This document shows, piece by piece, positions 1,859-40,482 of a stretch of 64,000 nucleotides of DNA. The first letter of the stretch is position 1, and each line of letters starts with the position of its first letter. Made by a program: the position numbers and the translations under genes. Location: positions 62,001 through 126,000 of the forward strand of contig CALMGM010000005.1 of the NCBI GenBank assembly GCA_937863685.1, given 5' to 3'. Below the pieces are notes generated by a model. It had not been told where the DNA came from and did no database searches. It saw nothing but the letters and a program-made list of their open reading frames with translations. This stretch comes from an uncultured bacterium. GTDB taxonomy: Bacteria > Edwardsbacteria > AC1 > EtOH8.

Positions 1859-4789
1859 TTACGAAGCTGCCCCCATATTGCTTTGTATTACTGTTACGGC
1901 CATTATATCGAAGATACCGCCGAGGTCGGTGTATTTGGGGTCTGCCAACTCTTCGTAGCGGTCATATTCATTATATGACTGCTTTATTTTCCCGTTTACC
2001 TGCATTCTGTAAGCCCCATCCAGGAAAATGGCATCATCTTGGTGGATTTGCACGGTGCTCTTAATCTCTTTGTCGGCCACTTTTTCTTCGGTCACCCTTT
2101 TGATATACAAGGCTTCTTCGTCACTGATGGAAAACTTCACCCGTATCTCATCTATCATATCCTGGACAGTTATCTTTTTTACAACTGGCGCTGGCCCGTG
2201 CCTGCCTCGACCGGACTGGGGTTTCCTTGCTCCCCCAGAAATCTTCTCTATCCCCTGGTCTTCAACCGATGCCTTGATGACCTCAGTCTGATGTATGCGC
2301 TTCATCAGCTCAGAAACCGTTCCCTGCTTGATGAGCTGCGGCCCCACATAATCTGCAAAACTGGCAAATACTTTAAGTTCTTCTGGAAAGGTAAAAAAGC
2401 AGGTCATGAAATGGAAGCACTTAACGTATTTGGCCAACAGATACACATAGTCGTTCCGTAGTTCATGGGTCGAAAGCATGGCCTGGAATCTAACCTTGTA
2501 TCCGTGTATGATATACTGTATCCTGGCATCTGAAGCATCCGAAGATACTAACTGTTGGAAATCCGAGGCATCCTTTTGCGTGAACAACCCCACCGCTTTT
2601 ATTTGGGCGTAGAGATTGGGGCATAAGTCCTTGTCTGGTTCTTCCGGCTCGAACGGGGTTCCCTTACGATACTTGGTAAAAGCCTTCAGGATGCCCTTGG
2701 CGTTATTGGTGAAATCTACCACCACGACATCGGACTTGCCCTCGTAACATCTATTTAGCCGGGACACGGTTTGCACAGCGTTCCTGTCCTTCACGGGCTT
2801 GTCCAGGAACATACCCGCCAGCAGGGGCTGGTCGAATCCCGTCTGGAATTTATTGGCTACAATCATTAGCCGATAGTCACTGCCTTCAAACCTGTCTTCT
2901 ATCAGTTCTCCCTCTTTCAGTTCATTTATTGCATGTTCAGTGATGTTAGCGCTGGTTTGGGGGTGGGTAAAATCCGAGAAGGCATAAAGCACCTTATAAT
3001 CCGCCTGGCGCTCACGGAGCTTCTCCTTGATGATATTGAAATACCGCAGTCCAGCTATCCGTGAGGTAGTCACTATCAATGCTTTGGCCTGTCCGTCAAT
3101 CAAAGGCTTGACGCTGTTTTCAAATATGCGCAGCATCACCTCGGCCTTATATTGTATCAATTCATCGTCCTGGAAGGCGACATTCTGGAGAGCCTTGGCA
3201 ATAATGCCCTTGGAGAATACTCTTTCTTTGTCCTTGTCTGGGACAACTGAGCAATGCAGATTATAAAGTGTTTTATAAGATATAATGCTGGCCGCCACAT
3301 CAACGATATACCCCTCGTCAATGGCCTCGGCCTCTGAATAAACATCGAATGGTGAGCCGAACAGGGACACGGTTGAGGGAGCGGGGGTGGCGGTGAAGGC
3401 AACGAAAAGTTGATTGTTGTCATGCTCTCTTATAATCTTGGCGACAGCCTCTTCCTCGTCCTTTTCAGTGGCCGCAACATCCGTATCGGGTTCGTCCGGG
3501 TTTCGGAAGGGCACCCGTATCGCAACCCCCATCTGGCCCTCCTGGGAACGATGGGCCTCGTCTATGAGAAAGGCCACCCGCAGCTTCTTCAGCTCGGGCT
3601 TGTTCTCGATTTCCTCAAGAATCCATACGAACTTCTGAAGGGTTGATACTATTATCGGCTTACGCTGTGCCAGGAACCGGGGCAGGTCTTCGGCTTTTTT
3701 TGCGAGCCCTATAACATCCTTAAGATGAGTGAAGTTCTCCAGTTCATCCTTGATGTTTTTGTCGAGGGCCTTTCGGTCAGTCAGGATGAAAACGATATCG
3801 GTAAGCTTGTCGTTGGTGTCTGGTTTATACAGGCTGTGCAGGCGGTCGGCCAGCCAGCAGATAGACAGCGTTTTCCCGCTGCCTGCCGAGTGATTGATGA
3901 GGTATTTCCCGCCAATATTGCCAGACGCTGTAAAATGCTCCTGGGCGGCATTGGCCAGTTTCCGAACCATACGACTTTGGTGGTAGCGTGGCAGGATAGT
4001 GAACTGGCTTTGGGCTGGTCGGTCGTCCTGGGCATCCCGTTTGGGCACATTGATTAGGTAGAAGGAGAGGAGCTCCAGCAGCCTGTCCTTCGACAAGACT
4101 TCACGATATAGGAACTCAACAGGGTATTCGCCCTTTGTGATGGGCTGGTTCGTCAGACCAGTATTATGCCACTTGAAGTTCTCTGTTCGGCTTGGGTTGG
4201 TGGCAGCCATCACGTCGCTTGTATCGGCTGCCAGGTAAATGAAGGGATGCTGAAATATCTTTACAGATTGGTCTCGGGCTACGAACTGGGCAACGGCATC
4301 GTGGACGTTCTGGTTCTTCTCGTGCTTGAGCTCCAGGGCTACTATGGGAAGGCCGTTCAGGTAGAAGACGAAATCAATCTCTTCGTTTGTCTCGCCAAAA
4401 TAGAAGTGGGGTCTAAAGGTTATGCGGTTTTCTGTATATTTATCTGTGGCAGCACTCTGAAAGGAGCGGGGTTTGGGGTAATACAGGTGTAAATCCAGGC
4501 CACGAACTTTCAAGCCGTGCCGAAGAATCATCCACAGGGGGGAGCTGGCAAGTTCCTTGTGTAGCGCTTTGAAAACCTCATCACGGGCATCGGTGCCATA
4601 GTTTTCGGCGAGCTTTTTTAGAGTATCCCCTTGCGTGGCCATCAGGAACGACCATAAGTGACCCTCGGCTATAAAGTGCGTCGTGTCTGCGATATCTCCC
4701 CGTTCAAGCATACCATAGCTGTGCTCACGGACAAGGAAGTCCGCAATGTGCTTCTGAAAATCCAGCTCAGGGACTTTTTTCTTAGGCAT
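1859..4789 (-). CDS. hsdR: Type I restriction endonuclease subunit R (HsdR), 3' frameshift
   Basis: ATP-dependent translocase and nuclease subunit of a type I restriction enzyme, 976 aa as read. The N-terminal PD-(D/E)XK nuclease is visible as EEIDFVFYLNG followed by VALELKHEKN (about residues 135-157). SF2 translocase motifs follow: Walker A SAGSGKT (about 303), LIDEAHRSQEG (about 412), VAFTATPAPS, and motif VI SRLNRCYEGK. The start ATG overlaps the hsdS stop by 8 bp. The reading frame ends in an abnormal tail, VIQSNMGAAS. Restoring one A to the AAA run at 1891-1893 instead yields VIQKQYGGSFVRLINYYVAE and on to a stop at 1794-1796, which looks like the real C-terminus. This is a single-base deletion or a homopolymer sequencing error. 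Confidence 0.95.
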   Translation of the reverse strand: MPKKKVPELDFQKHIADFLVREHSYGMLERGDIADTTHFIAEGHLWSFLMATQGDTLKKLAENYGTDARDEVFKALHKELASSPLWMILRHGLKVRGLDLHLYYPKPRSFQSAATDKYTENRITFRPHFYFGETNEEIDFVFYLNGLPIVALELKHEKNQNVHDAVAQFVARDQSVKIFQHPFIYLAADTSDVMAATNPSRTENFKWHNTGLTNQPITKGEYPVEFLYREVLSKDRLLELLSFYLINVPKRDAQDDRPAQSQFTILPRYHQSRMVRKLANAAQEHFTASGNIGGKYLINHSAGSGKTLSICWLADRLHSLYKPDTNDKLTDIVFILTDRKALDKNIKDELENFTHLKDVIGLAKKAEDLPRFLAQRKPIIVSTLQKFVWILEEIENKPELKKLRVAFLIDEAHRSQEGQMGVAIRVPFRNPDEPDTDVAATEKDEEEAVAKIIREHDNNQLFVAFTATPAPSTVSLFGSPFDVYSEAEAIDEGYIVDVAASIISYKTLYNLHCSVVPDKDKERVFSKGIIAKALQNVAFQDDELIQYKAEVMLRIFENSVKPLIDGQAKALIVTTSRIAGLRYFNIIKEKLRERQADYKVLYAFSDFTHPQTSANITEHAINELKEGELIEDRFEGSDYRLMIVANKFQTGFDQPLLAGMFLDKPVKDRNAVQTVSRLNRCYEGKSDVVVVDFTNNAKGILKAFTKYRKGTPFEPEEPDKDLCPNLYAQIKAVGLFTQKDASDFQQLVSSDASDARIQYIIHGYKVRFQAMLSTHELRNDYVYLLAKYVKCFHFMTCFFTFPEELKVFASFADYVGPQLIKQGTVSELMKRIHQTEVIKASVEDQGIEKISGGARKPQSGRGRHGPAPVVKKITVQDMIDEIRVKFSISDEEALYIKRVTEEKVADKEIKSTVQIHQDDAIFLDGAYRMQVNGKIKQSYNEYDRYEELADPKYTDLGGIFDIMAVTVIQSNMGAAS

Positions 4790-5531
4790 GGGCTTTCACT
4801 TTTTTAATGTCCGCATCAGATATTCGTCGTTGGCCAGTAACACATTCATGGATTAAAGAATTTCTATAAGAACGAAGTATTTTCATTTGTTTATTAAGAA
4901 TGCCCTCGGTTAACCTTGTATCATCCTTTGGCGTGGCAAGGGCAGCTATAGTATCAATGGCCTTGCAACTTTTAAGGAGGTATTCGTTGATACGTTCTTG
5001 TTCAGCCCTCGGCGGCAGGGGAATTAAAGCAGACCTAACGACATACTGAGACAAACCAAAACGAGTCACTCCAACTGCGTTAGCTTCATATTGAGCACGG
5101 AATTGTTTTGACCTGTGAAGCCAAGCGATAAAATCACCAGTGACTCTTTTTGACCTGGGGCGTATTAAAGCTAAGTGATAACCACATATTACACCAGGCA
5201 ATTCTTCTGTAACTAACGCTGGGATTGCTATATCGTCTGGTTCCTCTGAATCTTTTGTTATAAGAACATCATATTTCTGTATTTGGAATTTGACTATTTC
5301 TCTATTTTCTGCTGTTGCCTCCATAAACTCAATATTAGCAGTTATAAACTCATTTTTATAAACATCCACATAGTTGCATAATTTTACAGGGTCTTCTCCT
5401 TCCAGCGAGTGTTTATCAACATTGCTAAAAATAACATCTGCTACTGTATCCAAACGACATAAAACCCATTCAGTTGGGATATTGTCGGCCCAAGGGGTTA
5501 GGGTCTTTGTTGTAAAATTATTTTGAATCAT
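4782..5531 (-). CDS. hsdS: Type I restriction specificity subunit, half length (HsdS)
   Basis: DNA-recognition subunit of the type I enzyme, 249 aa from the ATG at 5529-5531. That start overlaps the hsdM stop (ATGA) and has GGAGGG about 12 nt upstream; a frame-open extension to 5582 lacks support. Only one target-recognition domain is present (about residues 15-190), ending in the typical YVVRSALIPLPPRAEQERIN motif, followed by one helical spacer. Canonical HsdS proteins are about 400 aa with two such domains. Half-size subunits are known to work as dimers that recognise palindromic bipartite sites, so this can be functional. Alternatively it is the remnant of a truncated gene, but the tight overlaps with both neighbours argue against decay. 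Confidence 0.9.
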   Translation of the reverse strand: MIQNNFTTKTLTPWADNIPTEWVLCRLDTVADVIFSNVDKHSLEGEDPVKLCNYVDVYKNEFITANIEFMEATAENREIVKFQIQKYDVLITKDSEEPDDIAIPALVTEELPGVICGYHLALIRPRSKRVTGDFIAWLHRSKQFRAQYEANAVGVTRFGLSQYVVRSALIPLPPRAEQERINEYLLKSCKAIDTIAALATPKDDTRLTEGILNKQMKILRSYRNSLIHECVTGQRRISDADIKKVKAHA

Positions 5532-7507
5532 TGATTTGGCAAACCCTCCAGTAAGTGTTCTGCATCCCTTTCTAACGTCCAAAATTGCTTTAACAAGTTT
5601 TTTGACTTATCCAACCGTTGATAGTTGAAGAAATATTTATTTGGTAAAAACTCGTAGCCGAGTTGCGGGCTGTCTTGCCAGCGTATTATGGGCTGGGCTA
5701 TCTCTCTTTTCAGGAACACTTCAATGTCTTCCCCGTAAGGAACATATTCATCTTCCTTAATATAATGGCGGTGTGTCCATTGAACTGATACAACATTTGG
5801 CTTGCCCTCCATTAGGGCATTAAATATTTTAGCAACGTTAGTCTTAGGCAAAAGGTTTATAGTTTCAGTCTTCTCGGCTTTCCCAACCTTTAACTTTACT
5901 GTGAACGTCATCTCGCTGGCGTAGAAATCCAATTCTCTCTTGATGTTGGCAGCGGTAAAAGCCTTTGTGTATGCCTCTGTGATTATGGCTGGCTTGTCAT
6001 TTTCATCAAACTGCCAGAATACCACGCTTAACTTGTGAAAGGAGAAGTCCTCTCGGTGGAATATCTTCACTTTCTCATCTGTATAATCCTTTTTCCAGCA
6101 ATTTCGGTATCTCTCCTCGACCCAGGCACGATTGCCGTCTGAGATTCGGTTGCGCTTGCAACCGAATGATTTTGGTTCCTTTTCGAACTGCTGCCTGGCG
6201 TCTATCAACATCACCCTGCCCCTGTGTGAGACTGGCTTATCGTTCCGCAGGAGCCAGATATAGGTGAATATGCCAGTATTATAGAAAAGCTGGTCGGGGA
6301 GCATAACGATGGCGTCGAGCCAGTCATTCTCCAGTATCCAGCGACGAATCTCGCTTTCGCCCGACCCGCAATCACCATTGGATAAAGGAGAGCCATTGAA
6401 TATTATGGCTATCTTGCTGGCCCCCTTTGTTGGTTCCTTCATCTTTGCCAGCATGGTTTGAAGAAACAACAGGGCTCCGTCGTTAACCCTTGGCAATCCC
6501 GCTTGGTATCTGGTTTTTAATAGCTTCCTGACCTCTGTTTCATATCCATCCTTGCCACCCCAGGTCACGCCAAAGGGAGGATTAGAAAGCATAAAATCAA
6601 ACTGATACTTTGACTCTGGGAGTTGGTCACCCTTTTCCTTGTTGTGAAGCTCGTGTGGGATGAGCGAATTACCACAAAACACTTTGGTCTGTTTGTCATC
6701 CTTAATGATGAGGTCGGCCAGGCACACGGCGTAGTTGGTCGGGGATAATTCCTGCCCGTGAACGGTAACATACTTGTCAACGTTTGCCTTCTGGGCCGGT
6801 GTGGCTGCCTTATCAAGAAGATGTTCCTTGGCGACTGATAGCATCCCGCCAGTTCCGCAAGCTGGGTCGTAGATGGAGATATGATGGTCGGGAACAGGGA
6901 TTTCGAGCAACTCTACCATTAGCCGTATGACTTCACGGGGGGTAAAGTGCTCTCCAGCCTCCTCACCGCTTTGTTCCGAGAAGCGGCGCAGCAATTCCTC
7001 ATAAATATATCCCATCTCCAGTGGGGATAGCTTGTCTGGCCCCAGTTCAAGCTCCTTATACTGGTTGAGGATGGGGGCGAGACGGTTGTTCTTCACCATC
7101 AGGCCGATGGTTTCACGGTAGTTGAAATGCTCGATAATGTCATCGACGTTTTTCGAGAACCCGTTGATGTAGGCACGGAAATTTGCGTCCAGAAGAGTAT
7201 GGTCTTCTTCGTAGACCTTGCGTAATGTCCAATCGGTCTTATTGGAAAAAGGAAAGGTGCTGGTTTCCAGGCCCTTCACCAGCTTCTTCAGCTCCTTCTC
7301 TGGTGTATTGGGCCGTTTTTTCAGCACCTCGGCGGATTTGTCTTTTCGCCACTGGATGAGGACGCATTCCAGACGGCGAATAACAATTATCGGCAGGATG
7401 ACGTTTTGATACTCATATGGTTTGAACTTGCCCCGCAGCCGCTCAGCGGACTTCCAAATTTCGTTGGCAAGATTGTCAAGTTTGGGTTTGTCAAGAGATA
7501 AGGTCAT
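5528..7507 (-). CDS. hsdM: Type I N6-adenine methyltransferase subunit M (HsdM)
   Basis: SAM-dependent adenine methyltransferase that modifies self DNA and forms the core of the R-M complex, 659 aa. The N-terminal HsdM helical domain (KLDNLANEIWKSAERLRGKF) is followed by the SAM-binding motif YDPACGTGGML (about 217) and catalytic motif SNPPFGVTWGG (about 308), the N6-adenine NPPF signature. AAAGGA lies 7 nt before the ATG. It is first in the operon hsdM-hsdS-hsdR-unknown, with overlapping junctions, and has its own promoter at 7533-7562. The protein is longer than the usual 500-540 aa; the extra length is in the C-terminal third. Confidence 0.96.
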   Translation of the reverse strand: MTLSLDKPKLDNLANEIWKSAERLRGKFKPYEYQNVILPIIVIRRLECVLIQWRKDKSAEVLKKRPNTPEKELKKLVKGLETSTFPFSNKTDWTLRKVYEEDHTLLDANFRAYINGFSKNVDDIIEHFNYRETIGLMVKNNRLAPILNQYKELELGPDKLSPLEMGYIYEELLRRFSEQSGEEAGEHFTPREVIRLMVELLEIPVPDHHISIYDPACGTGGMLSVAKEHLLDKAATPAQKANVDKYVTVHGQELSPTNYAVCLADLIIKDDKQTKVFCGNSLIPHELHNKEKGDQLPESKYQFDFMLSNPPFGVTWGGKDGYETEVRKLLKTRYQAGLPRVNDGALLFLQTMLAKMKEPTKGASKIAIIFNGSPLSNGDCGSGESEIRRWILENDWLDAIVMLPDQLFYNTGIFTYIWLLRNDKPVSHRGRVMLIDARQQFEKEPKSFGCKRNRISDGNRAWVEERYRNCWKKDYTDEKVKIFHREDFSFHKLSVVFWQFDENDKPAIITEAYTKAFTAANIKRELDFYASEMTFTVKLKVGKAEKTETINLLPKTNVAKIFNALMEGKPNVVSVQWTHRHYIKEDEYVPYGEDIEVFLKREIAQPIIRWQDSPQLGYEFLPNKYFFNYQRLDKSKNLLKQFWTLERDAEHLLEGLPNQ

Positions 7508-7610: not shown

Positions 7611-7638
7611 TTGACTTTTCAATATTTCATGGTATAAT
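7611..7638 (+). promoter_or_regulatory. Sigma70-type promoter of the SAM-riboswitch transcript
   Basis: TTGACT (7611-7616), 16-nt spacer, TATAAT (7633-7638). Transcription would begin near 7645, a few bases before the first P1 nucleotide of the riboswitch. Confidence 0.8.
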
Positions 7639-7650
7639 TATGTCAATAAC

Positions 7651-7757
7651 CTCATCGAGAGTAGGCCGAGGGACTGGCCCTATGACGCCTCAGCAACCTG
7701 GAGACTCCATAAGTCTCCGTGGTGCTAAATCCGAGTGATTAAAATCACGAAGATGAG
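7651..7757 (+). promoter_or_regulatory. SAM-I (S-box) riboswitch aptamer
   Basis: P1 is formed by CTCATC (7651-7656) and GATGAG (7752-7757). Between them lie the conserved S-box blocks in order: GAGGGACTGGCCC (7668-7680), TATGACGCCTCAGCAACC (7681-7698), the P3 stem GGAGAC/GTCTCC, GGTGCTAAATCC (7721-7732), and a P4 hairpin GTGATT/AATCAC. This is the full S-box consensus. In known members, SAM binding favours a downstream terminator and turns expression off. The genes that follow are not recognisable methionine or cysteine genes, which is unusual. Confidence 0.95.
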
Positions 7758-7769
7758 CCAAAGGAATTG

Positions 7770-7817
7770 AACCCTTTTCCTGTAGGCATATGCTTCGGGA
7801 CAGGGGTTTTTCTTTTT
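7770..7817 (+). terminator. Riboswitch-controlled intrinsic terminator
   Basis: AACC/GGTT and CCTGT/ACAGG arms (7770-7808, with an internal bulge) close over a loop containing TTCGGG, followed by TTTTTCTTTTT. It lies 13 nt after the aptamer and 40 nt before the first gene, the usual layout of a SAM-dependent transcription-terminating platform. Confidence 0.8.
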
Positions 7818-7832
7818 AGGAAGCCCTCCCCT

Positions 7833-7852
7833 CTCCAAATCAATTTGGAGGG
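7833..7852 (+). promoter_or_regulatory. Hairpin overlapping the ribosome-binding site
   Basis: CTCCAAAT (7833-7840) and ATTTGGAG (7843-7850) are inverted copies. The 3' arm contains most of the Shine-Dalgarno GGAGGG (7847-7852) of the gene starting at 7860. If it folds, it would mask the ribosome-binding site, adding a translational check to the riboswitch. Confidence 0.55.
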
Positions 7853-7859
7853 AACCATC

Positions 7860-8483
7860 ATGGAACAAAATGCCCAGCAGTTTTTCAGCTCGGTCTTCCT
7901 GGCCGGGCAAAAGGTGGAGCAGCACCATGACTATCAGCCCTATTTCCACATCAGGGGCTACCTGCGCCATAAATACCAACAGTCTGGGAAGACCGTCTCC
8001 GAACTGGCCCAGGCCTGCGGCTACCGCAAGCTGGAGAAGTTTAAGCGGCACCTGGAGGCCTGGCTGAAGGCAGAGAAGCCAGTGCCGGGAAAATTCCTGG
8101 GAGCCATCGGGGTTGAGCCGGAGATGCTTTGCAAGGTGCAGGTGCTGGATTTTGACTCGTGGGAAGAGGCCGTCAAATCGGTCAGGGTGCCCCAATGTTT
8201 CTCGGCCCGGTTGATGCCCGCCGTCTGGCAGTCCGTTCCCCTGCCGGAAAACCTCACCGAGGCCCAGACCGTGACTTACGTGAAGGATTATGCCCTGCTG
8301 AGAAGCCACCAGTGTCTAATAAACTATTCCGGGCTTAGGGTGACCTGGGTTTGGCCCGATGGCACCGTCAGCCGCCGCTACAGCTGGCCTTCAATTGAGT
8401 ATAAAAACCGCCTGGTCTACTTCAAGCTGGGCTCGGCCCAGCCGGACACGACCCAGCCGGGCATCACCAGGCTGGCAAGGTAG
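7860..8483 (+). CDS. Hypothetical HTH-like protein under SAM-riboswitch control
   Basis: 207 aa from the ATG at 7860, chosen because GGAGGG lies 7 nt upstream; an upstream in-frame ATG at 7767 sits inside the riboswitch platform. Residues about 28-85 (YLRHKYQQSGKTVSELAQAC through KFLGAIGVEPEML) look like a lambda-repressor-type helix-turn-helix. The rest (about 90-207) is a beta-rich region with WPDGTVSRRYSWPSIEYKN that I cannot place. No enzyme motif for methionine, SAM or methyl metabolism is visible. It is first of a unit with the 8489 gene, 5 nt away. A regulatory role is inferred from the HTH only. Confidence 0.75.
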   Translation: MEQNAQQFFSSVFLAGQKVEQHHDYQPYFHIRGYLRHKYQQSGKTVSELAQACGYRKLEKFKRHLEAWLKAEKPVPGKFLGAIGVEPEMLCKVQVLDFDSWEEAVKSVRVPQCFSARLMPAVWQSVPLPENLTEAQTVTYVKDYALLRSHQCLINYSGLRVTWVWPDGTVSRRYSWPSIEYKNRLVYFKLGSAQPDTTQPGITRLAR

Positions 8484-8488
8484 GGGCC

Positions 8489-8962
8489 ATGAAATACGAG
8501 GCATATTGGATATCCCCCAGGGGCAGGATTATCCCCGTTACCGGCCAGGTCGCAACCCATATCCGGGCCGTTATAAAGAACCCCGCCCAGTTCGGCCTGA
8601 GCCGTGAGACCGTCCAGAAGGCTTACAGAAGGCATCAGGAGCCCCTGGGACTGGAGGGAAAGGCCCGGCAGGAGATAATGGCAGGCCTGCTGCGGAAGGG
8701 TTGGGTGCGCCTCAGATTCGTTCCCAAGGCTCATGGCTTCACTATTCAGACAGGCTCGCTGAAAGCCCGCCAACAGAGCCATCTCCGGGCCTGGGCCAGG
8801 AAGGTTACCAACGAGGAGCTTGATACCTTGGACGCTGGGGCAGTCCACCTAAACATCATCACAGAATGCCCCCAGGAATCCTATCGGGGTTCTCTACGGA
8901 GCTTTCTCGACCGAGAGAGACCCAATAGCAGCCCGAGGCGCAGAACGTCCCTGGGGCATTAA
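8489..8962 (+). CDS. Conserved-looking hypothetical protein, second gene of the SAM-switch unit
   Basis: 157 aa, starting MKYEAYWISPRGRIIPVTG, 5 nt after the upstream stop. The pattern (an N-terminal strand with ISPRGRIIPV, then NPAQFGLSRETVQKAYRRH and a KARQEIMAGLLRKGWVRLRF segment) resembles small proteins of unknown function that I associate with phage and candidate-phylum genomes; this is memory of a pattern, not a search. The region after residue 100 is less ordered and Arg/Ser-rich at the end. It is co-transcribed with 7860-8483 by spacing and followed by a palindromic hairpin at 8979. Confidence 0.7.
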   Translation: MKYEAYWISPRGRIIPVTGQVATHIRAVIKNPAQFGLSRETVQKAYRRHQEPLGLEGKARQEIMAGLLRKGWVRLRFVPKAHGFTIQTGSLKARQQSHLRAWARKVTNEELDTLDAGAVHLNIITECPQESYRGSLRSFLDRERPNSSPRRRTSLGH

Positions 8963-8978
8963 AACGGGTAGAAGGTTG

Positions 8979-9002
8979 ATTCCTGCAATCAATTGCAGGA
9001 AT
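8979..9002 (+). repeat. Palindromic hairpin, CTGCAATCAATTGCAG family, copy 1
   Basis: ATTCCTGCAAT and ATTGCAGGAAT flank a CA centre. The 20-base core CTGCAATCAATTGCAGGAAT recurs exactly at 19629-19648, again just after the stop of an unknown gene. It may be a processing or attenuation hairpin ahead of the TPR gene at 9030. Confidence 0.7.
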
Positions 9003-9029
9003 TGAAAATTTTATCAAGGAGACGTAACT

Positions 9030-9572
9030 ATGTGGAACGAACTGAAAGCCAAAGCGGAAGAACTATATTACCAAGGTCGTTTTCCAGAGGCTCTCATATT
9101 GGCCGAGGAATCATTGAGCGCCGCAGAATCATGCTTCGGGCCGGAGCATCCCAACGTGGCCACAGCACTTAATAAGCTGGGAGAACTCTGCCTCCCCGAG
9201 GGGAAAAGAACAGAGGCCGAATCTCATTACCAGCGGGCGCTGGCGATTCAGGAAAAAGTGTTCGGCCCGGAGCACCTGGATGTGGCGGACACCTTGAACA
9301 ATCTGGGCGAGCTACATCGTATCCAAGGCCGATATGACCAGGCTGAGCCTCTGTATAAGCGAGCCCTGGCCATCCGGGAAAAGGCTCTTGCTCCTGAGCA
9401 TCCGGACGTATTGGTGTCCTTGGGCGAGCTGGAGGAGAATTACCATTGCCAGGGGCAATACGAGCAGGCGACAGGCCTATACAAGAGGAGATTGGCCATT
9501 AGAGAAAAACTCCTCGGGCACAAACTTCCGGACTACGGTGGACTATGGGCAAAAAGTAATAGGTGCAGTTGA
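9030..9572 (+). CDS. Kinesin-light-chain-type TPR protein
   Basis: 180 aa with about four tetratricopeptide repeats of the 42-residue kinesin-light-chain type, each carrying the EKxxGPEHPDVAxxLNNLGEL signature (about residues 25-165). Such repeats mediate protein-protein contacts and are common in bacterial signalling and conflict proteins. AAGGAG lies 8 nt before the ATG. No catalytic domain is attached, so it is shorter than most NB-ARC- or caspase-linked relatives. The stop codon TGA sits in the loop of the terminal hairpin (9558-9583). It may be the third gene of the SAM-switch transcript, 67 nt behind 8962. Confidence 0.85.
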   Translation: MWNELKAKAEELYYQGRFPEALILAEESLSAAESCFGPEHPNVATALNKLGELCLPEGKRTEAESHYQRALAIQEKVFGPEHLDVADTLNNLGELHRIQGRYDQAEPLYKRALAIREKALAPEHPDVLVSLGELEENYHCQGQYEQATGLYKRRLAIREKLLGHKLPDYGGLWAKSNRCS

Positions 9573-9609: not shown

Positions 9610-9936
9610 TTACTTCTTGATATTTGTTCTTTTCCCCAGAATCAAGACGGCCTCCCGGACAATTTTCGCTTCCTGCTCGGTCAGCTCTATCCCCACGAAC
9701 CCTGCCTTAGCCCCTTTCATGGCAGGCCGCTCGAATGATAGAATATCAACAATCCTGACATTCAGGGCATCAGCCAGCTTATACAGGGCCTCCAGGGACG
9801 GGGTTCTTTTCCCGGTCTCCAGCATGGCGATGTAGGTGTTGCTCAATCCCGTCCTTTCGGCCAGCTCCTCCTGGGTCAGGCCCTTCTTGTTCCGCAGGGC
9901 CAGTATCCTCTTGCCGAGGTCTTTACGAATATCCAT
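9610..9936 (-). CDS. XRE-family transcriptional regulator
   Basis: 108 aa from the ATG at 9934-9936, preceded by GGGAG; frame-open sequence upstream of it to 10146 is not supported. Residues 5-60 form a Cro/C1-type helix-turn-helix: GKRILALRNKKGLTQEELAE then RTGLSNTYIAMLETGKRTPS. The C-terminal half (ELTEQEAKIVREAVLILGKR) is helical and may dimerise. The 5' untranslated region holds a 13-bp inverted repeat that buries the Shine-Dalgarno (9938-9988). Targets are unknown; it sits between two TPR genes. Confidence 0.88.
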   Translation of the reverse strand: MDIRKDLGKRILALRNKKGLTQEELAERTGLSNTYIAMLETGKRTPSLEALYKLADALNVRIVDILSFERPAMKGAKAGFVGIELTEQEAKIVREAVLILGKRTNIKK

Positions 9937-13970: not shown

Positions 13971-15764
13971 TTAAAATGATGTCTTAAATAGTTTTCCACT
14001 ATCGTCTTTATCGTGTAACTCCAGAATAATATCATCTTTGCTGAATTCTATTGGATTGCCGTTCTCATCTCTTGGCAAATCATCCTTGATGATACTAAGA
14101 ATATATTGAATATTATACTTGTCGCAATATATTCTCAATAACTTCAACAATTTTACCCTAATCTTATTCTCTTGATTTGAAAACACATCGTCATGGTAAA
14201 CAAATTTAAAATAGGATTCATTTGAGTATTCGGCTAATATTGCTAAATCAAAAACAACACAAAGCATTTTTTTATAAGTATGGCCTTCGCCTTTTCTTGT
14301 GTCACCAATCTTATAACTATATTCAACGTTATTGTTTTTATTTTTATGAATGGATATTATTGCTGGATAATTCAGCACTGACATTGCAAATTCTGAAAAA
14401 TAATTTCTAATGTTTATATAGCGGGTATTACTTTTCGTGTTGTCAATAATCGTCGTTAATTTTTGCACAGTTAATTTTAATTCGTCGTCTAATCTATCTA
14501 TTTCAGATTTCTTTATCTCAATAACTTTAATGGAATCCAATTGTGCTTCAAGCCTTGCTATTTCGTTTTCAAGTTTAATTAGGTCGTTTTGATATTCTTT
14601 TAATTTTTTTATGATTGTATTGTCTTGTAAGACATCCCTGTATTTTTCTTTTTCTTTGTTTAAATCTAACAGTGTTACTTTTACATCCCTTAGGGCAGCC
14701 ACTTTACTTGTCAGTGCTTCCTTTAAAAGGTCTTTACGTTCAATTGTAATCTGTTTGTTAAATTCAATTAACTCTTCGTATGATTTTGTTAATTGGTCAG
14801 GAAAATAAATCTTTGTTTCATTAAATATTTCTTTAATTGACTCTAAATCAAAGCTAAATTCACTTTTAAGTGAATCATTTATTTTTTTTATTTCAAATTG
14901 CAAGTTGTAGGATAGCTTGTTCAATTCACTTATCCTTGTTTCTATGTCATCAACCAACTCAACAATTAACTTGTCATCCTGATTGTAAAAGTTTAAACTA
15001 TCAAGTTCTTGAATCTTTTCTTTCTTTGACTTATTGAGAACTTGAATAAATCCTTCAACCTCATCCTTTTGACTTGATTGAATATTGAATCCTTCTTCCT
15101 GTTCCTTAATGACTTTGATTTTTTGAGTTATCTCATCTTCAACTCTATACTTTTCAGCAACAGAGTTTTTGTCGAACCCCAATAATGAGAACATAAACGT
15201 TTTCCATTTTTTCTCATCAAAAGTAAATTTTTTAAGCTTAAATAAATCAGCATAATCATCATCGTCTGGGACTCGAAGGGAATAATTAACTGTGTCTCTA
15301 TAATCTAAATCATTATTGTTTTTAAAAAAATCATAATCTAAGTATGTATTTAGTAATTCTATAGCTTTATCAATTCCAACATTTTCCCAATCCCAAGTTT
15401 CGGGGATATTAAAGTCATCTACACTGTCTTTTGAAAGCTTTAGAGATACTTTTGAACTATCCGCAACCGTCCTTTTTATTGTTAGATAGGAGCCAGAATT
15501 AAGCAGTATTTCTAAATAGAATTCATATCCGTTGAATTTTAATGTGCCTGTTTCAATATCTTTTGTTGATGTGAGGAAGTGTTGTTTAGGTAGTATCTTT
15601 TTAAGCAGCAAAAAGTCTAACAACCTTATAAACTTTGTTTTACCGATGGAATGAGAGCTGTTGGGGCTTGACTTCGCTTTGACATCAGCAATAATCACGT
15701 TTAAGCCAAGGTTAAACTTGGTGTTGTGAAATGCTTTATTGCTATACAACTTGCTAAGTTTCAT
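13971..15764 (-). CDS. ABC-three-component system ATPase, DUF2326-like
   Basis: 597 aa SMC/Rad50-like ABC ATPase. Unlike textbook ABC proteins, the N-terminal P-loop region is degenerate (SSHSIGKTKFIRLLDFLL, about 38-55). A coiled-coil middle (about 200-440) is followed by DUF2326-like C-terminal motifs: GEGHTYKKMLCVVFDLAIL (signature region) and FKFVYHDDVFSNQENKIR (Walker B and beyond). This is the ATPase of ABC-three-component (ABC-3C) conflict systems predicted by comparative genomics, in which the ATPase senses invading nucleic acid or protein and licenses an effector. It is the last gene of the operon, 1 nt after the middle component, and strongly AT-rich. Confidence 0.82.
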   Translation of the reverse strand: MKLSKLYSNKAFHNTKFNLGLNVIIADVKAKSSPNSSHSIGKTKFIRLLDFLLLKKILPKQHFLTSTKDIETGTLKFNGYEFYLEILLNSGSYLTIKRTVADSSKVSLKLSKDSVDDFNIPETWDWENVGIDKAIELLNTYLDYDFFKNNNDLDYRDTVNYSLRVPDDDDYADLFKLKKFTFDEKKWKTFMFSLLGFDKNSVAEKYRVEDEITQKIKVIKEQEEGFNIQSSQKDEVEGFIQVLNKSKKEKIQELDSLNFYNQDDKLIVELVDDIETRISELNKLSYNLQFEIKKINDSLKSEFSFDLESIKEIFNETKIYFPDQLTKSYEELIEFNKQITIERKDLLKEALTSKVAALRDVKVTLLDLNKEKEKYRDVLQDNTIIKKLKEYQNDLIKLENEIARLEAQLDSIKVIEIKKSEIDRLDDELKLTVQKLTTIIDNTKSNTRYINIRNYFSEFAMSVLNYPAIISIHKNKNNNVEYSYKIGDTRKGEGHTYKKMLCVVFDLAILAEYSNESYFKFVYHDDVFSNQENKIRVKLLKLLRIYCDKYNIQYILSIIKDDLPRDENGNPIEFSKDDIILELHDKDDSGKLFKTSF

Positions 15765-15765
15765 T

Positions 15766-15999
15766 TTATTTAAGCTTAAAAGAATAAAGTATTGAATTGT
15801 ATTCTATTTTATTAAGAAGAAATAGAAAATTTAAAGCATGCGGAAATATATCTTTCGATTCTGCACCAAGCAACTTACAGGTTTCTATTTCAAGTTCATC
15901 ATATGACAGTATATTTATACGTTGCAATATACGTATAATAGTGGCACTCACATTAATTACAGAATGCTTTAAATCAAAGTATTTATCTGGAGTTATCAT
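15766..15999 (-). CDS. ABC-three-component system middle component (MC6-like)
   Basis: 77 aa, MITPDKYFDLKHSVINVSAT..., a small helical protein with the DIFPHALNFLFLLNKIEY pattern typical of ABC-3C middle components, probably the type-6 group. Its ATG overlaps the stop of the SMEK gene by 4 bp and its stop lies 1 nt before the ATPase start, so all three are co-translated. Middle components are thought to bridge ATPase and effector. Its identity rests on size, helical pattern and position. Confidence 0.8.
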   Translation of the reverse strand: MITPDKYFDLKHSVINVSATIIRILQRINILSYDELEIETCKLLGAESKDIFPHALNFLFLLNKIEYNSILYSFKLK

Positions 16000-16967
16000 T
16001 TTTTGTTTTCCCCGATGTCACACTGAAAATACATAAAGTGCAGTAAGATTCGAAGTGCCCTGCGGTCTGAGACTAATTCTGGGTTTTTAACGTTACAGGT
16101 ATCTTCTATCGCTTCAAAAATATCATCAAACAGGGCATAATTTTTCCTATTTGTTAATATTTCTTTTTGCAAATCAGCTGTTATGTTGTAATATATATTT
16201 TTCAAATCTTTGTTTTCAAATGATTCTAAAAATACTCTGAATTGTTCAAAAAATGGTAATGATTGTTGTTGAATTAGTTTAATGTATCCTTCACTAAGAT
16301 TATTGATTTTATTCTTTAGCGGGAAATCAGTTCTGTGAATATCTTTTATTCTTTTTGATATACTTCCAATTAAACTCGGATTTTTAGTTAAAAATCCATT
16401 AAGCAACTTTGCAATATCCTGTGGTGTAATGTCATCTATAAGTTTCCCTTTTAATTTGGAAACATGGCTCTCTAATATTGACAAGATTTCCTCTTGTATA
16501 TTTATGGGAAGTCCCTTAATCTGTGCCAATAAGTCTTCAAAGTCAATTATATGTTTGCTTTTATCGAAAGTATATTTCCCCTCTGTATCAAATATTGCGG
16601 TGTAATCTTTTTTCCTGGTTGTTATTAGAAAGTAATGAATGGGATAGGTTTCGTAAACTTTGTGTTTAATGTTTATCCCTATTTTCTCCTTGATATATGT
16701 TGATGTGTCTGTTGCGGTTACAGACACGCCAATCCCTTTGGCAGTATCGCCCAAATCAATTGCTGGGTAATTAGTGTGCGAGGTATTGAGATTTTTCAGA
16801 TTCCATCCATACACTTTATTCAATATTAAGACGCATAATTCTTCGTTAGTGTTGTTAACATCGTTCAGACGAGCCGCCGAACTTAACTCGGTATAAACCC
16901 GCCAATGGGTAAGTTGATTTAAGATTTTATGGATTATTTCAAGGTTCTGCATTTTTTGCAAACTCAC
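15996..16967 (-). CDS. SMEK-domain ABC-three-component system effector
   Basis: 323 aa from a GTG at 16965-16967; an ATG five codons on is an alternative. Residues 10-160 match the SMEK domain: LNDVNNTNEELCVLILNKVY, then NTSHTNYPAIDLGDTAKGIG, VSVTATDTSTYIKEKI and HYFLITTRKK, a PD-(D/E)XK-like arrangement with AIDLGD as a candidate acidic site. The C-terminus (SDRRALRILLHFMYFQCDIG) is the ABC-3C C-terminal helical module. It would be the first gene and the effector of this predicted anti-phage system. Nuclease activity is inferred from the fold family. Confidence 0.8.
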   Translation of the reverse strand: MSLQKMQNLEIIHKILNQLTHWRVYTELSSAARLNDVNNTNEELCVLILNKVYGWNLKNLNTSHTNYPAIDLGDTAKGIGVSVTATDTSTYIKEKIGINIKHKVYETYPIHYFLITTRKKDYTAIFDTEGKYTFDKSKHIIDFEDLLAQIKGLPINIQEEILSILESHVSKLKGKLIDDITPQDIAKLLNGFLTKNPSLIGSISKRIKDIHRTDFPLKNKINNLSEGYIKLIQQQSLPFFEQFRVFLESFENKDLKNIYYNITADLQKEILTNRKNYALFDDIFEAIEDTCNVKNPELVSDRRALRILLHFMYFQCDIGENKK

Positions 16968-19746: not shown

Positions 19747-21018
19747 TCAGACCGCCTTAGCCACCGGCAGGTCTTCCCAGCTGGTTGTGAACCTTGGAGA
19801 AAGCATCATCTGCCTCATCTTCCAGGGACGGTTGATTCCCGCTGCGGCATACTTGAGAGTTCCCCGGCCCATCCGGGAATTGATGGAGTCCACCGCCCGC
19901 ATCAGCCCGGTCTCTCCCGATTTCTCCTGGCCCGGCTCCAACATGTCCAGTTGGGTAATATCCCTCGGCCCGATACCAGCCAACAGCACCCCGGCCCGCT
20001 TGTAGGAATAACCGGGCTTGAAGATGTTCTTTAGCCCCCGGTGGGCCAGCTCCAGCAGACGGGGGGTATAGTCGGTGGGCTCGGGCAGGCCCAGGGTAAT
20101 GGAATTTGAATACTGGGGCTCATCCCGGAAACAGTTGCTGCCTATGAACACCGTCAGCAGGGAGGCCTTGGATTTCTGCTTCCGGAGCTTCTCGGCGCAC
20201 ATGGTGGTGAATTCGGCCACGGCCTGCTCCAGTTCCTCTTTGACGTGGACGTCCCGGCCAAAAGAGCGGGAGGTCATAATGCACTTCTTGGGCGGCGGGG
20301 TCTCCTGACCATCAATGCAGGGGTTGCCCCGGAGCTCCTCGACCATTCTGAGGCCCACCACGGTCATATGGCTCCGTATCCAGTCGTCATTGGCGTTCCT
20401 GAGCTGAAGGGCCGTCTGGATGCCGTGGCGGCTCAGGAGGGCCGTATAACGCCTTCCTACGCCCCATATATCCTCCACCTTGGTCTGGGCCAGCAGCTGG
20501 TCGATTTGGGGGTTGTCTGTGATATCGAGCACGCCGCCCAACCCTGGGTCTTTCTTGGCGAGGCGATTAGCCAGCTTGGCCAGGGTCTTGGTGGGGCCGA
20601 TGCCTATGGAGACCGGGATGCCAGTCCACTGGCTTACGGTGGCCTTGATTTTCCGGCAATAGGCCGTCCGGTCGATATTCATGCTGGCCAGGGATAGAAA
20701 GGCCTCATCGATGGAATAAATTTCCATTTCCGGCGTGAACTGCCGGAGGGTGGCCATCACCCGGCTTGAGAGGTCACCGTAAAGGGCGAAGTTGGCCGAG
20801 AAAACAGCCACGTTGTGCTGGTCGATAATTTGCTGGTATTTGAAGACTGGCTCAAACCCGGCGATGCCCAGGGCCTTGGCCTCGTTGGTGCGGGCTATGA
20901 CGCAGCCGTCGTTGTTGGATAGCACGATGACCGGCCTGCCCTCCAGAGATGGATTGAAGACCCGTTCACAGGAAGCATAAAAACTATTGCAGTCGGCCAG
21001 AGCGAATATCTTTCTCAT
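19747..21018 (-). CDS. umuC: DNA polymerase V subunit UmuC (Y family)
   Basis: 423 aa translesion polymerase. N-terminal [16 protein letters not shown] supplies the first metal-binding Asp; [17 protein letters not shown] is the fingers region; [14 protein letters not shown] holds the catalytic SIDE motif (about residues 99-107); helix-hairpin-helix [15 protein letters not shown] (about 180-195); little-finger domain from about 240. It lies 12 nt after umuD and is its operon partner; cleaved UmuD' normally activates UmuC for error-prone bypass after SOS induction. No gap or frameshift is visible. Confidence 0.97.
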
Positions 21019-21030
21019 AATGAAACCAGT

Positions 21031-21480
21031 TTACACCTTGTGTATGACAAAAACTACGACTCCCCAAATCTTCAGGTCAGCCAGGTCATCCAGCTTAACC
21101 TCCGGGTAATCCGGGTTCTCGGAAGCCAGATACATCCGCCCGGCCCGTTGCCGGAGCCGTTTTACAGTCAGCTCCCCGTCCAGTGCCGCCACCACTATCT
21201 TTTTGTCGCCCGGCTCCAGCGAGCGGTCTACCAGCAGAAGGTCGCCGGAATGGATACCAGCTCCAATCATTGAATTGCCGGATACCTTGACGATGAAGGT
21301 TGCGGCTGGATTCTTTATCAGGTGTTCATTCAAATCCAGCTTCTTCTCAATGAAATCATCGGCTGGAGAGGGGAACCCTGCCGGGACTCGGGAACTATAT
21401 ACCGGCAGGGCTACCCGGCCTTTTTGCCTGGGGCGGTAGATACCTGTAACTACAGTATAGTTTATTTTTGGGACGGGCAT
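21031..21480 (-). CDS. umuD: SOS mutagenesis protease UmuD (S24/LexA family)
   Basis: 149 aa from the ATG at 21478-21480, which has AAAGGTG upstream; a GTG three codons earlier is possible. The self-cleavage site VPAGFPSP has Ala34-Gly35. The catalytic Ser is in VSGNSMIGAGIHSGD (about 71) and the general base Lys is in LDGELTVKRL (about 108). RecA-driven autocleavage would release UmuD' for the polymerase encoded just downstream. No LexA box of a familiar phylum was recognised in the 225 nt upstream, where the control signal must lie. Confidence 0.95.
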   Translation of the reverse strand: MPVPKINYTVVTGIYRPRQKGRVALPVYSSRVPAGFPSPADDFIEKKLDLNEHLIKNPAATFIVKVSGNSMIGAGIHSGDLLLVDRSLEPGDKKIVVAALDGELTVKRLRQRAGRMYLASENPDYPEVKLDDLADLKIWGVVVFVIHKV

Positions 21481-21714
21481 TTTATTCACCTTTTAAATCT
21501 TTTATCTGGGCATTTCTTGCCAGAAAGATGATACTCCAATTACAAATGAAAATCAATATCAGAAACAACATGCTTACCATAACATCAATAACGATTTCAC
21601 TTGACATCTCAAGCTAAATATAATATATTTAATATTCGCCTTTAATCCAGATTTCTAAATAAATGGGTTGACTAATATTTTCAAACATAAGAGAGTGCAT
21701 CCACTAAGTAATTT

Positions 21715-23059: not shown

Positions 23060-23428
23060 TATGCATTGGTAGGTTGGCCAGCCGGGGAATAACCTTCAGC
23101 GACAGTATCATAAGGTATGGGCTCGGCAAGGCGGCTGGTCAGCCCGTTGATAAAAATCCGGGATTCGGGTAGCGTTCATGCTTTCTAAGCTGCCTTAGGG
23201 CTTGACAGTTCCATATATGGCTTCTTTGTCAGGGCTTTAACATGGTTCGTTTAAACTCTTCGGATTGGTTGATTACCTCGTCAAGGGATTCTAAAGAATG
23301 GTAATAAATACTACATTCTACGGACATTAGCCAGTTGCAAATGTCGTCCACTTCAGCCAGCCAGTACACGAAGTCCGACAAATATATCTATCTCAAAAGG
23401 ACCCTATAGTTAAGCTATAGGGTCCTTT
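23060..23428 (+). repeat. Diverged long member of the intergenic element family, with terminator
   Basis: No gene is seen between 22984 and 23452. The 5' part has GGGGAATAACCTT, and the 3' part has GACATT...AATGTC (a hairpin where the other copies have the T-arm-like sequence), CGTCCACTTCAGCCAGCCA and a GTAC...GTCCGAC tail, in the same order as in 32301-32450. The middle is about 170 nt longer than in the other copies. It ends with the terminator AAAGGACCCTATAG...CTATAGGGTCCTTT (23396-23428). Kinship is by short blocks only. Confidence 0.45.
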
Positions 23429-32586: not shown

Positions 32587-34275
32587 ATGAAAACGAACGA
32601 CTGGGTTTATTTTATTACATACGGCGCAACTCTCACATTGCTGGCGCCGGTACTCGGCTACTGGATGGCCAAGGTACTCAACGGGCAGCCCGGGTTTCTT
32701 GGCCGTATCTTGAGTCCTCTGGAAAAGAGCATTTACCGTTTGACCGGGATCCAGCCGGACAAGGAAATGCACTGGAGGACATATCTGCTTTCTCTGCTGG
32801 CCTTCAATGGTCTGGGATTCCTCTTTGTCTTCCTTCTGCAGATCACCCAAAGGCACCTGCCGTTGAACCCTCAGCATTTGCCCAATGTTCCCGGATGGTT
32901 GGCCTTCAATACCGCTGTCAGTTTCACGACCAATACTAACTGGCAGGCGTATTCGGGCGAAACGACCCTGAGTTATCTGGTGCAAATGGCCGGATTGGAA
33001 GTGCAGAACTTCCTAAGCGCCGCCACCGGCATTGCCGTGATGCTGGCCCTGGCCCGGTCATTGATAAGACACTCATCCGAAGTAATAGGTAATTTCTGGG
33101 CTGACGTGACCAGGACGACCTTGTATGTCCTGCTGCCGATGTCCCTGCTCCTGTCCCTGGTCCTGGTCCAGCAAGGTGCAGTGCAGTCTTTCCGCCCCAA
33201 TGCAGTTGCCAGAACCATCGATGGATCGGAGCAAGTCATTCCACTGGGGCCGGTGGCCTCGCAAGTGGCAATCAAACAATTGGGCACCAATGGCGGTGGG
33301 TATTTCGGGACCAACAGCGCACATCCTTTCGAGAATCCCACCCCATTGACGAACTTCCTGGAGATGCTGGCCATCATGCTGCTGCCAGCGGCCCTGATAT
33401 TTACCTTCGGGAAAATGATAGGCAATAAAAAGCATGCCTGGATGATATACGGCGTGATGATGTTGATGCTGCTGGCCGGAATAACTGCTGCCTACTGGGC
33501 GGACTGGCGGATGGAAATGCAACTGCCCGGGATAGCTATGGAAGGCCGGGAATACAGGTTCGACAGAGCCAGCAGCGTGCTGTGGAGCGTGCTGACCACG
33601 GCCGTTTCCAACGGGTCGGTCAATGCCATGCACGGAAGCATGGCTCCGGTCACCGGGCTGGTGCAGCTGTTCAACATGATGATCGGCGAAGTGATTTTCG
33701 GCGGCGTGGGATGCGGCATGTACGGCATGATGTTGTACATTCTGCTGACGGTCTTCATCGCCGGATTGATGGTAGGCCGCACTCCCGAATATCTGGGCAA
33801 GCGGATCGACCGTTATACCATTGTCTGGGCCAGCATCGGCCTGCTGTTGCCCTCGGCGGTGATCCTGGAAGGCACGGCACTTTCCTGCCTTTCGCCCGCC
33901 GCTTTGGCTTCCCACCTGAACCACGGGCCGCGGGGTTTCAGTGAGATTCTCTACGCATGGACCTCCTCCTCCGCCAACAACGGAAGCGCCATGGCGGGGA
34001 TCAATGCCGCTACAAACTTCTACGCCATCGGTCTTGGTATGGCGATGTTGCTGGGGAGATTCGGGGTGATCGTGCCTGTACTGGCCATTGCCGGCCACCT
34101 GGCCCAAGGAAAATCGATCCCGCCGTCGGCCGGCACCCTGCCCACCGATTCACTGACCTTTTCCCTGGTGCTGACGGCTGTCATCATGATAGTGGGCGGC
34201 CTGACCTTCTTTCCCGCCCTATCGCTGGGCCCATTGATCGAACACCTGCTACTGGCAACCGGGCGGTTGTTCTAA
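32587..34275 (+). CDS. kdpA: Potassium-transporting ATPase, K+ channel-like subunit KdpA
   Basis: 562 aa, about ten membrane helices, the ion-selecting subunit of the high-affinity KdpFABC pump. Selectivity-filter-like loops are visible: NTNWQAYSGETTLSYL (about 115-130), KQLGTNGGGYFGTNSAHPFE (about 225-245), VSNGSVNAMHGSMAP (about 340) and SSANNGSAMAGINAAT (about 460), each with the conserved Gly. No kdpF is seen upstream. kdpB starts 9 nt after the stop. Promoter control is presumably through KdpDE, encoded downstream. Confidence 0.97.
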   Translation: MKTNDWVYFITYGATLTLLAPVLGYWMAKVLNGQPGFLGRILSPLEKSIYRLTGIQPDKEMHWRTYLLSLLAFNGLGFLFVFLLQITQRHLPLNPQHLPNVPGWLAFNTAVSFTTNTNWQAYSGETTLSYLVQMAGLEVQNFLSAATGIAVMLALARSLIRHSSEVIGNFWADVTRTTLYVLLPMSLLLSLVLVQQGAVQSFRPNAVARTIDGSEQVIPLGPVASQVAIKQLGTNGGGYFGTNSAHPFENPTPLTNFLEMLAIMLLPAALIFTFGKMIGNKKHAWMIYGVMMLMLLAGITAAYWADWRMEMQLPGIAMEGREYRFDRASSVLWSVLTTAVSNGSVNAMHGSMAPVTGLVQLFNMMIGEVIFGGVGCGMYGMMLYILLTVFIAGLMVGRTPEYLGKRIDRYTIVWASIGLLLPSAVILEGTALSCLSPAALASHLNHGPRGFSEILYAWTSSSANNGSAMAGINAATNFYAIGLGMAMLLGRFGVIVPVLAIAGHLAQGKSIPPSAGTLPTDSLTFSLVLTAVIMIVGGLTFFPALSLGPLIEHLLLATGRLF

Positions 34276-34284
34276 GGAGAAAAA

Positions 34285-36360
34285 ATGAGTTCCAATCACC
34301 CCAAGGAAAAGACCTTTGACCGCAAACTGCTGGCCCGGGCCGGCTGGGAAAGCCTGAAGAAACTATCCCCCAGGTCCCAGTTGAAGAACCCGGTGATGCT
34401 GGTGGTTTTCCTGGGGGCCATATATGCCACCATATCATCGATAGCGGTTCACTCCGGTTACCAGGCGCAGGTGGCCGGGTGGCTCTGGTTCACCGTGATC
34501 TTCGCCAATTTCGCCGAGGCGCTGGCCGAGGGGCGGGGAAAGGCCCAAGCCGATTTTCTGAGATCCATGCGCCGGACCGGGAAAGCCAGGCTGATCAAGG
34601 ACGGCAAAGAAGAATCGGTGACCCCGGCCGATCTCCGGGCCGGCGATACCGTTGTCTGCGAAGCCGGGGACATTATTCCCGCTGACGGCGAAGTGATCGA
34701 GGGCATTGCCAGCGTGGACGAATCGGCCATCACCGGCGAATCGGCCCCGGTCATCCGGGAAAGCGGCGGAGACCGGAGCGCGGTCACCGGCGGAACCAGG
34801 GTGCTGAGTGACCGGGTGCTGGTCCGGGTAGTCAGCGAGCCGGGGCGTTCGTTCATAGATAAGATGATAACCCTGGTGGAGGGGTCTAACCGCCGCCAGA
34901 CCCCCAACGAACAGGCCCTGAATGCATTGATCATAGGCCTGACGATACTGTTCATATTGGTGGTATCCACCATACCCTCGACTCTGGGCTACGCCGCTTC
35001 GGAAGGAGGCCGGCCGGCCGGCTTCTGCCTGGACCTGACCACTTTAATAGCCCTGCTAGTCTGCCTGATTCCCACCACCATCGGGGGACTGCTTAGCGCC
35101 ATCGGCATCAGCGGTATGGACCGGCTGGTGCGAAAGAACGTGCTGGCCACCAGCGGGCGGGCGGTGGAAGCCGCAGGGGACATTAACGTACTGCTGCTGG
35201 ACAAGACAGGGACCATCACCTTCGGCAACCGGATGGCCACTGACTTCATCCCGGCCCGCGGCGTTACCGCTAACGACCTGGCTTCAGCTGCCCAGCTGGC
35301 ATCTTTGGCCGATGAAACTCCGGAGGGACGATCTATAGTTGTGCTGGCCAAGGAACGCTATAACCTGAGGGAAAGGAACCTGTCCGGGCCCCATGCCCGG
35401 TATGCACCTTTCACGGCCAAGACCAGGATGAGCGGAATAGATCTGACAGAAGAAGGAACCATCCGCTCGATCAGGAAAGGCGCCGCCGATGCCATACTGG
35501 AGATGATCCGCAGCCAGGGGGGAAGCTTTCCCGAGGAAGTGACTAAAACCGTTGAAATGATATCCCGCCAGGGCGGCACCCCGCTGGTGGTGGCTGATAA
35601 TCGCCGGGTGTTGGGTGTAATTCAGCTAAGAGACGTGGTGAAAGGCGGAATCCGGGAAAGATTCGCCCAAATGCGGCGGATGGGCATCAAGACGGTGATG
35701 ATCACCGGCGACAATCCCTTGACGGCAGCTGCCATAGCCGCAGAAGCAGGGGTAGATGATTTCATGGCCAATGCCACGCCAGAGGACAAGCTGAAAAGGA
35801 TAAGACAAGAACAAGCCCAGGGACGTCTGGTAGCCATGACCGGCGATGGAACCAACGATGCCCCCGCCCTGGCCCAGGCCGATGTGGGGGTAGCCATGAA
35901 TTCCGGCACCCAGGCGGCCCGGGAGGCCGGCAACATGGTGGACCTGGACAGCAATCCCACCAAGCTGATAGAGATCGTGGAAACCGGCAAGCAATTGCTG
36001 ATGACCAGGGGTGCCCTCACCACCTTCAGCATCGCCAACGATGTCTCAAAATATTTTGCCATCATACCGGCCATCTTCGGGGGGCTTTATGCTGTCTCAG
36101 GGCGGCCGGGCCCCCTGTCGGTGCTGAACATAATGCGCCTGCATTCGCCGCAAAGCTCCGTGCTTAGCGCCGTGATCTTCAACGCCCTGATCATCATTAT
36201 GCTTATCCCCCTGGCCTTGCGCGGGGTGACGTATCGTCCTTTGGGGGCGGCCGCAGTGCTCAGACGTAATCTTTTGATATTCGGATTGGGCGGTCTGATA
36301 ACGCCTTTTATCGGGATAAAGATCATAGATCTGCTCATCAACTGGTTAAGGATAATTTAG
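34285..36360 (+). CDS. kdpB: Potassium-transporting P-type ATPase subunit KdpB
   Basis: 691 aa P-type ATPase that energises KdpA. Motifs in order: actuator [12 protein letters not shown] (about 148-160), phosphorylation site [12 protein letters not shown] (Asp near 307), nucleotide-binding [27 protein letters not shown] and hinge [20 protein letters not shown] (about 515-535). It has AAGGAG before the ATG and is 9 nt from kdpA and 11 nt from kdpC. Confidence 0.98.
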
Positions 36361-36371
36361 CAGGTGCCCTC

Positions 36372-40307: not shown

Positions 40308-40482
40308 CTGTGAGAACTGGTGTGGGGTAAACTATTGTTCTATTAATTGAATAATACACTGTTACCGAAGGTCTGGGATGAAGATATGGTTGTCATATTC
40401 ACAGATGGCGGTTCGAACGTCCTCCACTACCCCCAGCCAACACTTTATAAAGCAAGGTAATCCAATGGGTTGCCTTGCTTTT
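40308..40482 (+). repeat. Intergenic structured element, copy B
   Basis: The core 40308-40439 matches copy A with GTGAGAACTGGTGTGGGG, TATTGTTCTATTAATTGAAT, TACCGAAGGTCTGGGAT and GGCGGTTCGAACGTCCTCCA. The end stem is GGGGTA (40324-40329) with TACCCC (40428-40433). The 5' hairpin of copies A and C is missing or degraded here. The terminator is AAAGCAAGGTAA...TTGCCTTGCTTT (40449-40482), unrelated in sequence to the other copies. It follows kdpE; no coding frame is seen in 40281-40584. Confidence 0.8.

Follow-up and report, generated by a model that had tools for sequence, protein, structure and literature searches.

Why would a SAM-I riboswitch stand in front of two genes of no recognizable family, on a mobile element and beside a type I R-M operon, when the usual targets of such switches are methionine, cysteine or SAM genes? 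The question arises from one locus in the window, by which we mean the whole 64,000-nucleotide stretch of DNA that was analysed, and a SAM-sensing restriction or defence locus would be of interest because R-M cannot work without SAM, which phages in turn attack as a way around R-M. An earlier note on this DNA had described there a full S-box aptamer (7651-7757) behind a promoter, a terminator (7770-7817), a hairpin over the ribosome-binding site, two unknown genes of 207 and 157 aa (here A and B) and an adjoining type I R-M operon, and all of these were recovered in the present analysis (Table 1).

Table 1. Features of the riboswitch locus, in window coordinates
Feature	Position	Strand	Evidence or remark
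Type I R-M operon, divergent from switch	1859..7507	-	Pfam and PADLOC
hsdR	1859..4789	-	Pfam and PADLOC
hsdS	4782..5582	-	Pfam and PADLOC
hsdM	5528..7507	-	Pfam and PADLOC
Sigma-70-type promoter	7611..7638	+	TTGACT at 7611, TATAAT at 7633, spacer 16
SAM-I (S-box) aptamer	7649..7759	+	cmscan RF00162, 74.7 bits; G006 counterpart 77.3 bits
Antiterminator	7753..7791	+	Predicted fold -11.2 kcal/mol; similar hairpins in six related leaders
Leader intrinsic terminator	~7760..7817	+	Predicted fold -25.2 kcal/mol and U-run
Hairpin sequestering Shine-Dalgarno	7831..7852	+	-11.9 kcal/mol, GGAGGG in 3' arm
Gene A	7860..8483	+	207 aa, orphan; weak helix-turn-helix signal, residues 36-69
Gene B	8489..8962	+	157 aa, orphan; start 5 bases past A stop codon
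Intrinsic-terminator-like hairpin closing A-B operon	8976..9005	+	Fold of 8963-9025, -20.6 kcal/mol
TPR gene	9030..9572	+	Common to window and G006 elements; beyond A-B terminator
XRE helix-turn-helix protein	9610..9936	-	Common to both elements, 96% aa

A classical SAM-I leader precedes two orphan genes

When the leader was searched against Rfam with cmscan, as the earlier note had proposed, the score was high rather than low: the aptamer matched RF00162 (SAM-I) over its full length (1-108) at 74.7 bits (E 1.1e-15), as compared to a gathering score of 44.4 bits. In the alignment, the bases at the positions that contact SAM in the crystal structure are unchanged, including J1/2 G11, P1 A6-U and U7-A, J3/4 GCAACC and P3 GGUGC. 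By these measures the window aptamer is a true and ordinary member of RF00162, for which SAM binding is predicted. Downstream of it, the 3' strand of P1 (AUG..GCC) is predicted to pair with GGC..AU of the terminator region in an antiterminator that is exclusive with P1; indeed, P1 and the terminator on one side and the antiterminator on the other are predicted to be mutually exclusive, as in a SAM-I expression platform. The terminator hairpin ends in UUUUUCUUUUU and is conserved in seven leaders of the bacterial family, which are alike in aptamer and terminator throughout, although MAFFT alignments of these leaders misplace parts of P4. Read from sequence, the leader would therefore be of the classical type, off when SAM is plentiful and on when SAM is low, which agrees with what the earlier note had suggested.

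Neither A nor B matched a family in Pfam, NCBIfam, PHROG or PADLOC, save for a sub-threshold helix-turn-helix signal in A (Pfam HTH_18, E 0.028, below cut-off) that is also present in the A protein of G006, the related genome described below; B gave no helix-turn-helix signal. Unlike the usual SAM-I regulon of Met, Cys and SAM genes, they thus include no sulfur- or SAM-metabolism family recognized by Pfam or NCBIfam, nor did either match the PADLOC profiles of known anti-phage defence genes. Comparison with PDB sequences returned nothing convincing for either protein. AlphaFold predictions were unusable for A (pLDDT 36.6) and fair for B (63, about 75 over residues 1-110), and the predicted fold of B had no PDB or viral fold match at E below 0.001. 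The earlier note had also allowed for a TPR gene in this unit. The terminator-like hairpin after B, whose G006 counterpart folds at -30.6 kcal/mol, speaks against such membership, and the TPR gene probably forms a unit of its own.

The switch cassette recurs beside a different type I R-M system

Among 386 genomes, whole-protein matches to A and B were confined to two, the window's own and G006, the latter from a different genus within the family. The G006 genes do not lie in an ordinary met operon; instead, they again follow a SAM-I element, the only one in that genome, and again stand beside a type I R-M operon. The two A proteins are 83% identical and the two B proteins 65%, with dN/dS values of 0.23 and 0.29, respectively, which argues that both genes encode proteins under purifying selection. 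In addition, a distant relative of B (~25-29% identity) was identified in G004 (contig named UBP2 UBA2255). Scanning genome contigs and viral contigs with patterns for A and B revealed nothing beyond this relative, tblastn against plasmids and phages gave no match, and one strict pattern for the SAM-I core consensus found none in viral contigs. Matches to A in G004 and G007 were rejected as orthologues, as they represent a 61-residue domain that is shared (30-33%) between small stand-alone proteins and A, in which it lies in the C-terminal half. These small proteins adjoin pilT-like genes in both genomes (G004, L016 9709-9984; G007, L018 4552-4944).

The other SAM-I elements of the family precede metF-like genes (G000, G001, G002 and G004) or, in G007, a HcyBio gene (PF01837). 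The Shine-Dalgarno hairpin is common only to the two A-B leaders and the G007 HcyBio leader, and on account of this shared hairpin the A-B leader may be derived from such a methionine leader.

To the left of the window are a tRNA-Gln (CTG) and a serine integrase that overlaps the tRNA with its C-terminus. The tRNA end, CCCCCAGCCA, is a 10-base direct repeat with a second copy at window 40430-40439, and the uninterrupted, empty site is present in the sister genome G002. Therefore, the island is an integrative element in tRNA-Gln, and from the recurrence of the repeat and the uninterrupted G002 site it spans about -3043 to 40439, or ~43.5 kb (left end at L019 8957). G006 carries the same tRNA-Gln followed by an integrase stretch with 91% identity across 1978 bases; the switch and A-B are shared at 80.7% over 1139 bases, and the TPR and XRE genes are also common to both elements. 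A and B are absent from the sister genomes, and the cassette lies on a variable mobile element.

Several other features of these islands were recorded. The window's island includes UmuD/UmuC-like ORFs (19747-21489), a kdp potassium-transport operon (32587-40280) and further PADLOC defence candidates (13971-15764 and 15996-16967), one resembling PDC-M68B/LmuB and the other matching an Aga_REase-PNTD profile over its N-terminal 174 residues. The G006 element contains a group I intron (RF00028, 75.9 bits; L039 5562-5809, minus strand) ~3.3 kb behind tRNA-Gln. The two islands also share a remnant at 84.6% (window 23257-23373, L015 18718-18833), which may be the trace of a former element end within the island; its G006 copy falls in the C-terminal portion of another serine-recombinase ORF, the second one there.

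HsdM, HsdS and HsdR domains are all present in the operon that neighbours the switch in the window. In G006 a type I R-M operon occupies the same place, between integrase and switch and divergent from the switch, while its Hsd proteins are only 22-28% identical to those of the window and are non-orthologous. In this comparison the boundary of homology falls precisely on the A-B promoter (window 7610), and the hsdM-A gap holds no conserved operator. The low Hsd identity and the position of this boundary indicate that the R-M system was exchanged and the SAM-I/A/B cassette kept. Similarly, the G004 relative of B is the first gene of a third, different type I operon, whose hsdM is 26-30% identical to the other two; no Rfam riboswitch was found with this relative. 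A 246-aa protein of no assigned family lies between it and hsdM (L017 8718-9458). In fact, B or its relative is located within ~1.1 kb of hsdM in all three genomes that have one (G000, G006 and G004), a small count in which the elements with the switch number two and are themselves related. Random placement is nevertheless unlikely, because strong type I hsdM matches number one each in G000 and G006 and two in G004; a hand estimate is of the order of 1e-6 for two independent events, a figure weakened by defence-gene clustering. Since the related island carries this switch and these genes next to another R-M system, the link looks selected.

A low-SAM switch may restrain type I R-M

From these comparisons A and B form a conserved module of tRNA-Gln serine-integrase elements with adjoining type I R-M. 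Type I enzymes need SAM for their activity, including methylation and restriction (PMC3874165), and type I R-M is tightly controlled against autoimmunity, with restriction alleviation limiting self-damage (PMC11109961). When SAM is abundant, P1 would be stabilised, the terminator would form, and A and B would be off. Upon a drop in SAM, the P1 3' strand would join the antiterminator and A-B mRNA would be made, while HsdM could no longer keep the chromosome methylated and new chromosomal sites would stay unmethylated. A, with its possible helix-turn-helix, and B would then regulate or restrain the adjoining type I R-M, whichever system the element holds, and self-restriction would be prevented. 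We favour an R-M-restraining module because type I enzymes need SAM, are held back against self-damage and would leave sites unmethylated at low SAM. That this low-SAM-on operon encodes regulators or restrainers of the neighbouring R-M system is put forward tentatively; that the riboswitch of this mobile island uses A and B to make control of the resident type I R-M, whichever it is, depend on the SAM level approaches an even chance, and its stronger form would be a sensor of phage SAM destruction.

This proposal is consistent with the aptamer, terminator, antiterminator and Shine-Dalgarno hairpin of the leader, with the presence of this switch ahead of A-B in a second genus, with retention of the cassette (A 83%, B 65%) while the Hsd proteins are non-orthologous, and with the constant nearness of B to hsdM. 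Against it, A and B have no known domain beyond the sub-threshold helix-turn-helix, and the switch is present at two related loci only, so that adjacency could be element architecture. Also, the G004 relative is without an Rfam riboswitch, the hsdM-A gap is without a conserved operator and homology starts at the A-B promoter, and restriction itself needs SAM (PMC3874165), so that low SAM would limit self-damage anyway.

The explanation offered by the earlier note was a back-up response to SAM depletion; as back-up immunity, it would have phage SAM-destroying enzymes release the switch and A-B mount an anti-phage or growth-arrest response. The off-switch logic of the leader fits this idea, as does an element rich in PADLOC defence genes, and phage T3-type SAM lyases, which destroy SAM to evade R-M, are indeed early anti-R-M proteins (PMC7877911, PMC8406200). 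However, A and B have neither a toxin or nuclease signature nor a PADLOC match, and a newly transcribed two-gene operon would need to act fast. SAM-lyase phages of this phylum are not known to us. Back-up immunity seems unlikely, and a role in autoimmunity control of type I R-M would explain the locus at least equally well.

The remaining explanations are less likely than either R-M restraint or phage back-up. A and B might regulate the element itself, by acting on its excision, its transfer or its integrase, and SAM starvation would then be a stress signal. Both elements retain them alongside XRE, TPR and the integrase stretch of 91% identity, but A-B lie ~10.7-13.5 kb from the tRNA-integrase end and the G004 relative of B heads an R-M operon, with no integrase seen in the part of G004 that was read, and we regard such a role as rather improbable. 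More doubtful again is a lineage-specific service to methionine or SAM metabolism: the family's other SAM-I switches do precede metF-like genes and HcyBio, and Met/Cys metabolism is the role commonly given to SAM-I targets of no known function (PMC3766115), but A and B bear no enzyme or transporter signature and the cassette sits on a variable mobile element that is missing from sister genomes. Finally, a changed ligand, as in the spermidine-sensing SAM-I variants, which share the SAM-I architecture and likewise precede unusual genes (PMC10853860), is very improbable, since the SAM-binding positions altered in those variants (here J1/2 G11, P1 A6-U and U7-A, GCAACC and GGUGC) are all intact.

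Comparison with known systems

The window leader shares with transcription-terminating S-box leaders (RF00162) its aptamer, SAM-contact bases, antiterminator/terminator pair and off-switch logic, and differs from the usual ones in its extra Shine-Dalgarno hairpin and in its two target genes, which are orphans carried by an integrative element next to type I R-M. Likewise, the metF and HcyBio leaders of its own family are homologous in aptamer and terminator, and the HcyBio leader of G007 also shares this hairpin, but those leaders head methionine genes whereas the window leader is on a mobile element and precedes orphan genes. The proposed role of A-B resembles known controls of type I R-M, such as ClpXP-dependent restriction alleviation and Ral, in that it would prevent self-restriction; A and B have no homology to these, however, and SAM control by a riboswitch is not described for them in the literature that we found. 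Indeed, our literature search returned no paper joining a SAM riboswitch with R-M, a defence locus or a mobile element. The novelty lies in the target, a pair of orphan genes that an integrative element carries next to R-M, and not in the aptamer; the function proposed for A-B draws on two related elements and one distant relative of B. If A and B act on the R-M system, or replace it at low SAM, this switch would be a direct RNA link from methyl-donor supply to the control of DNA self and non-self.
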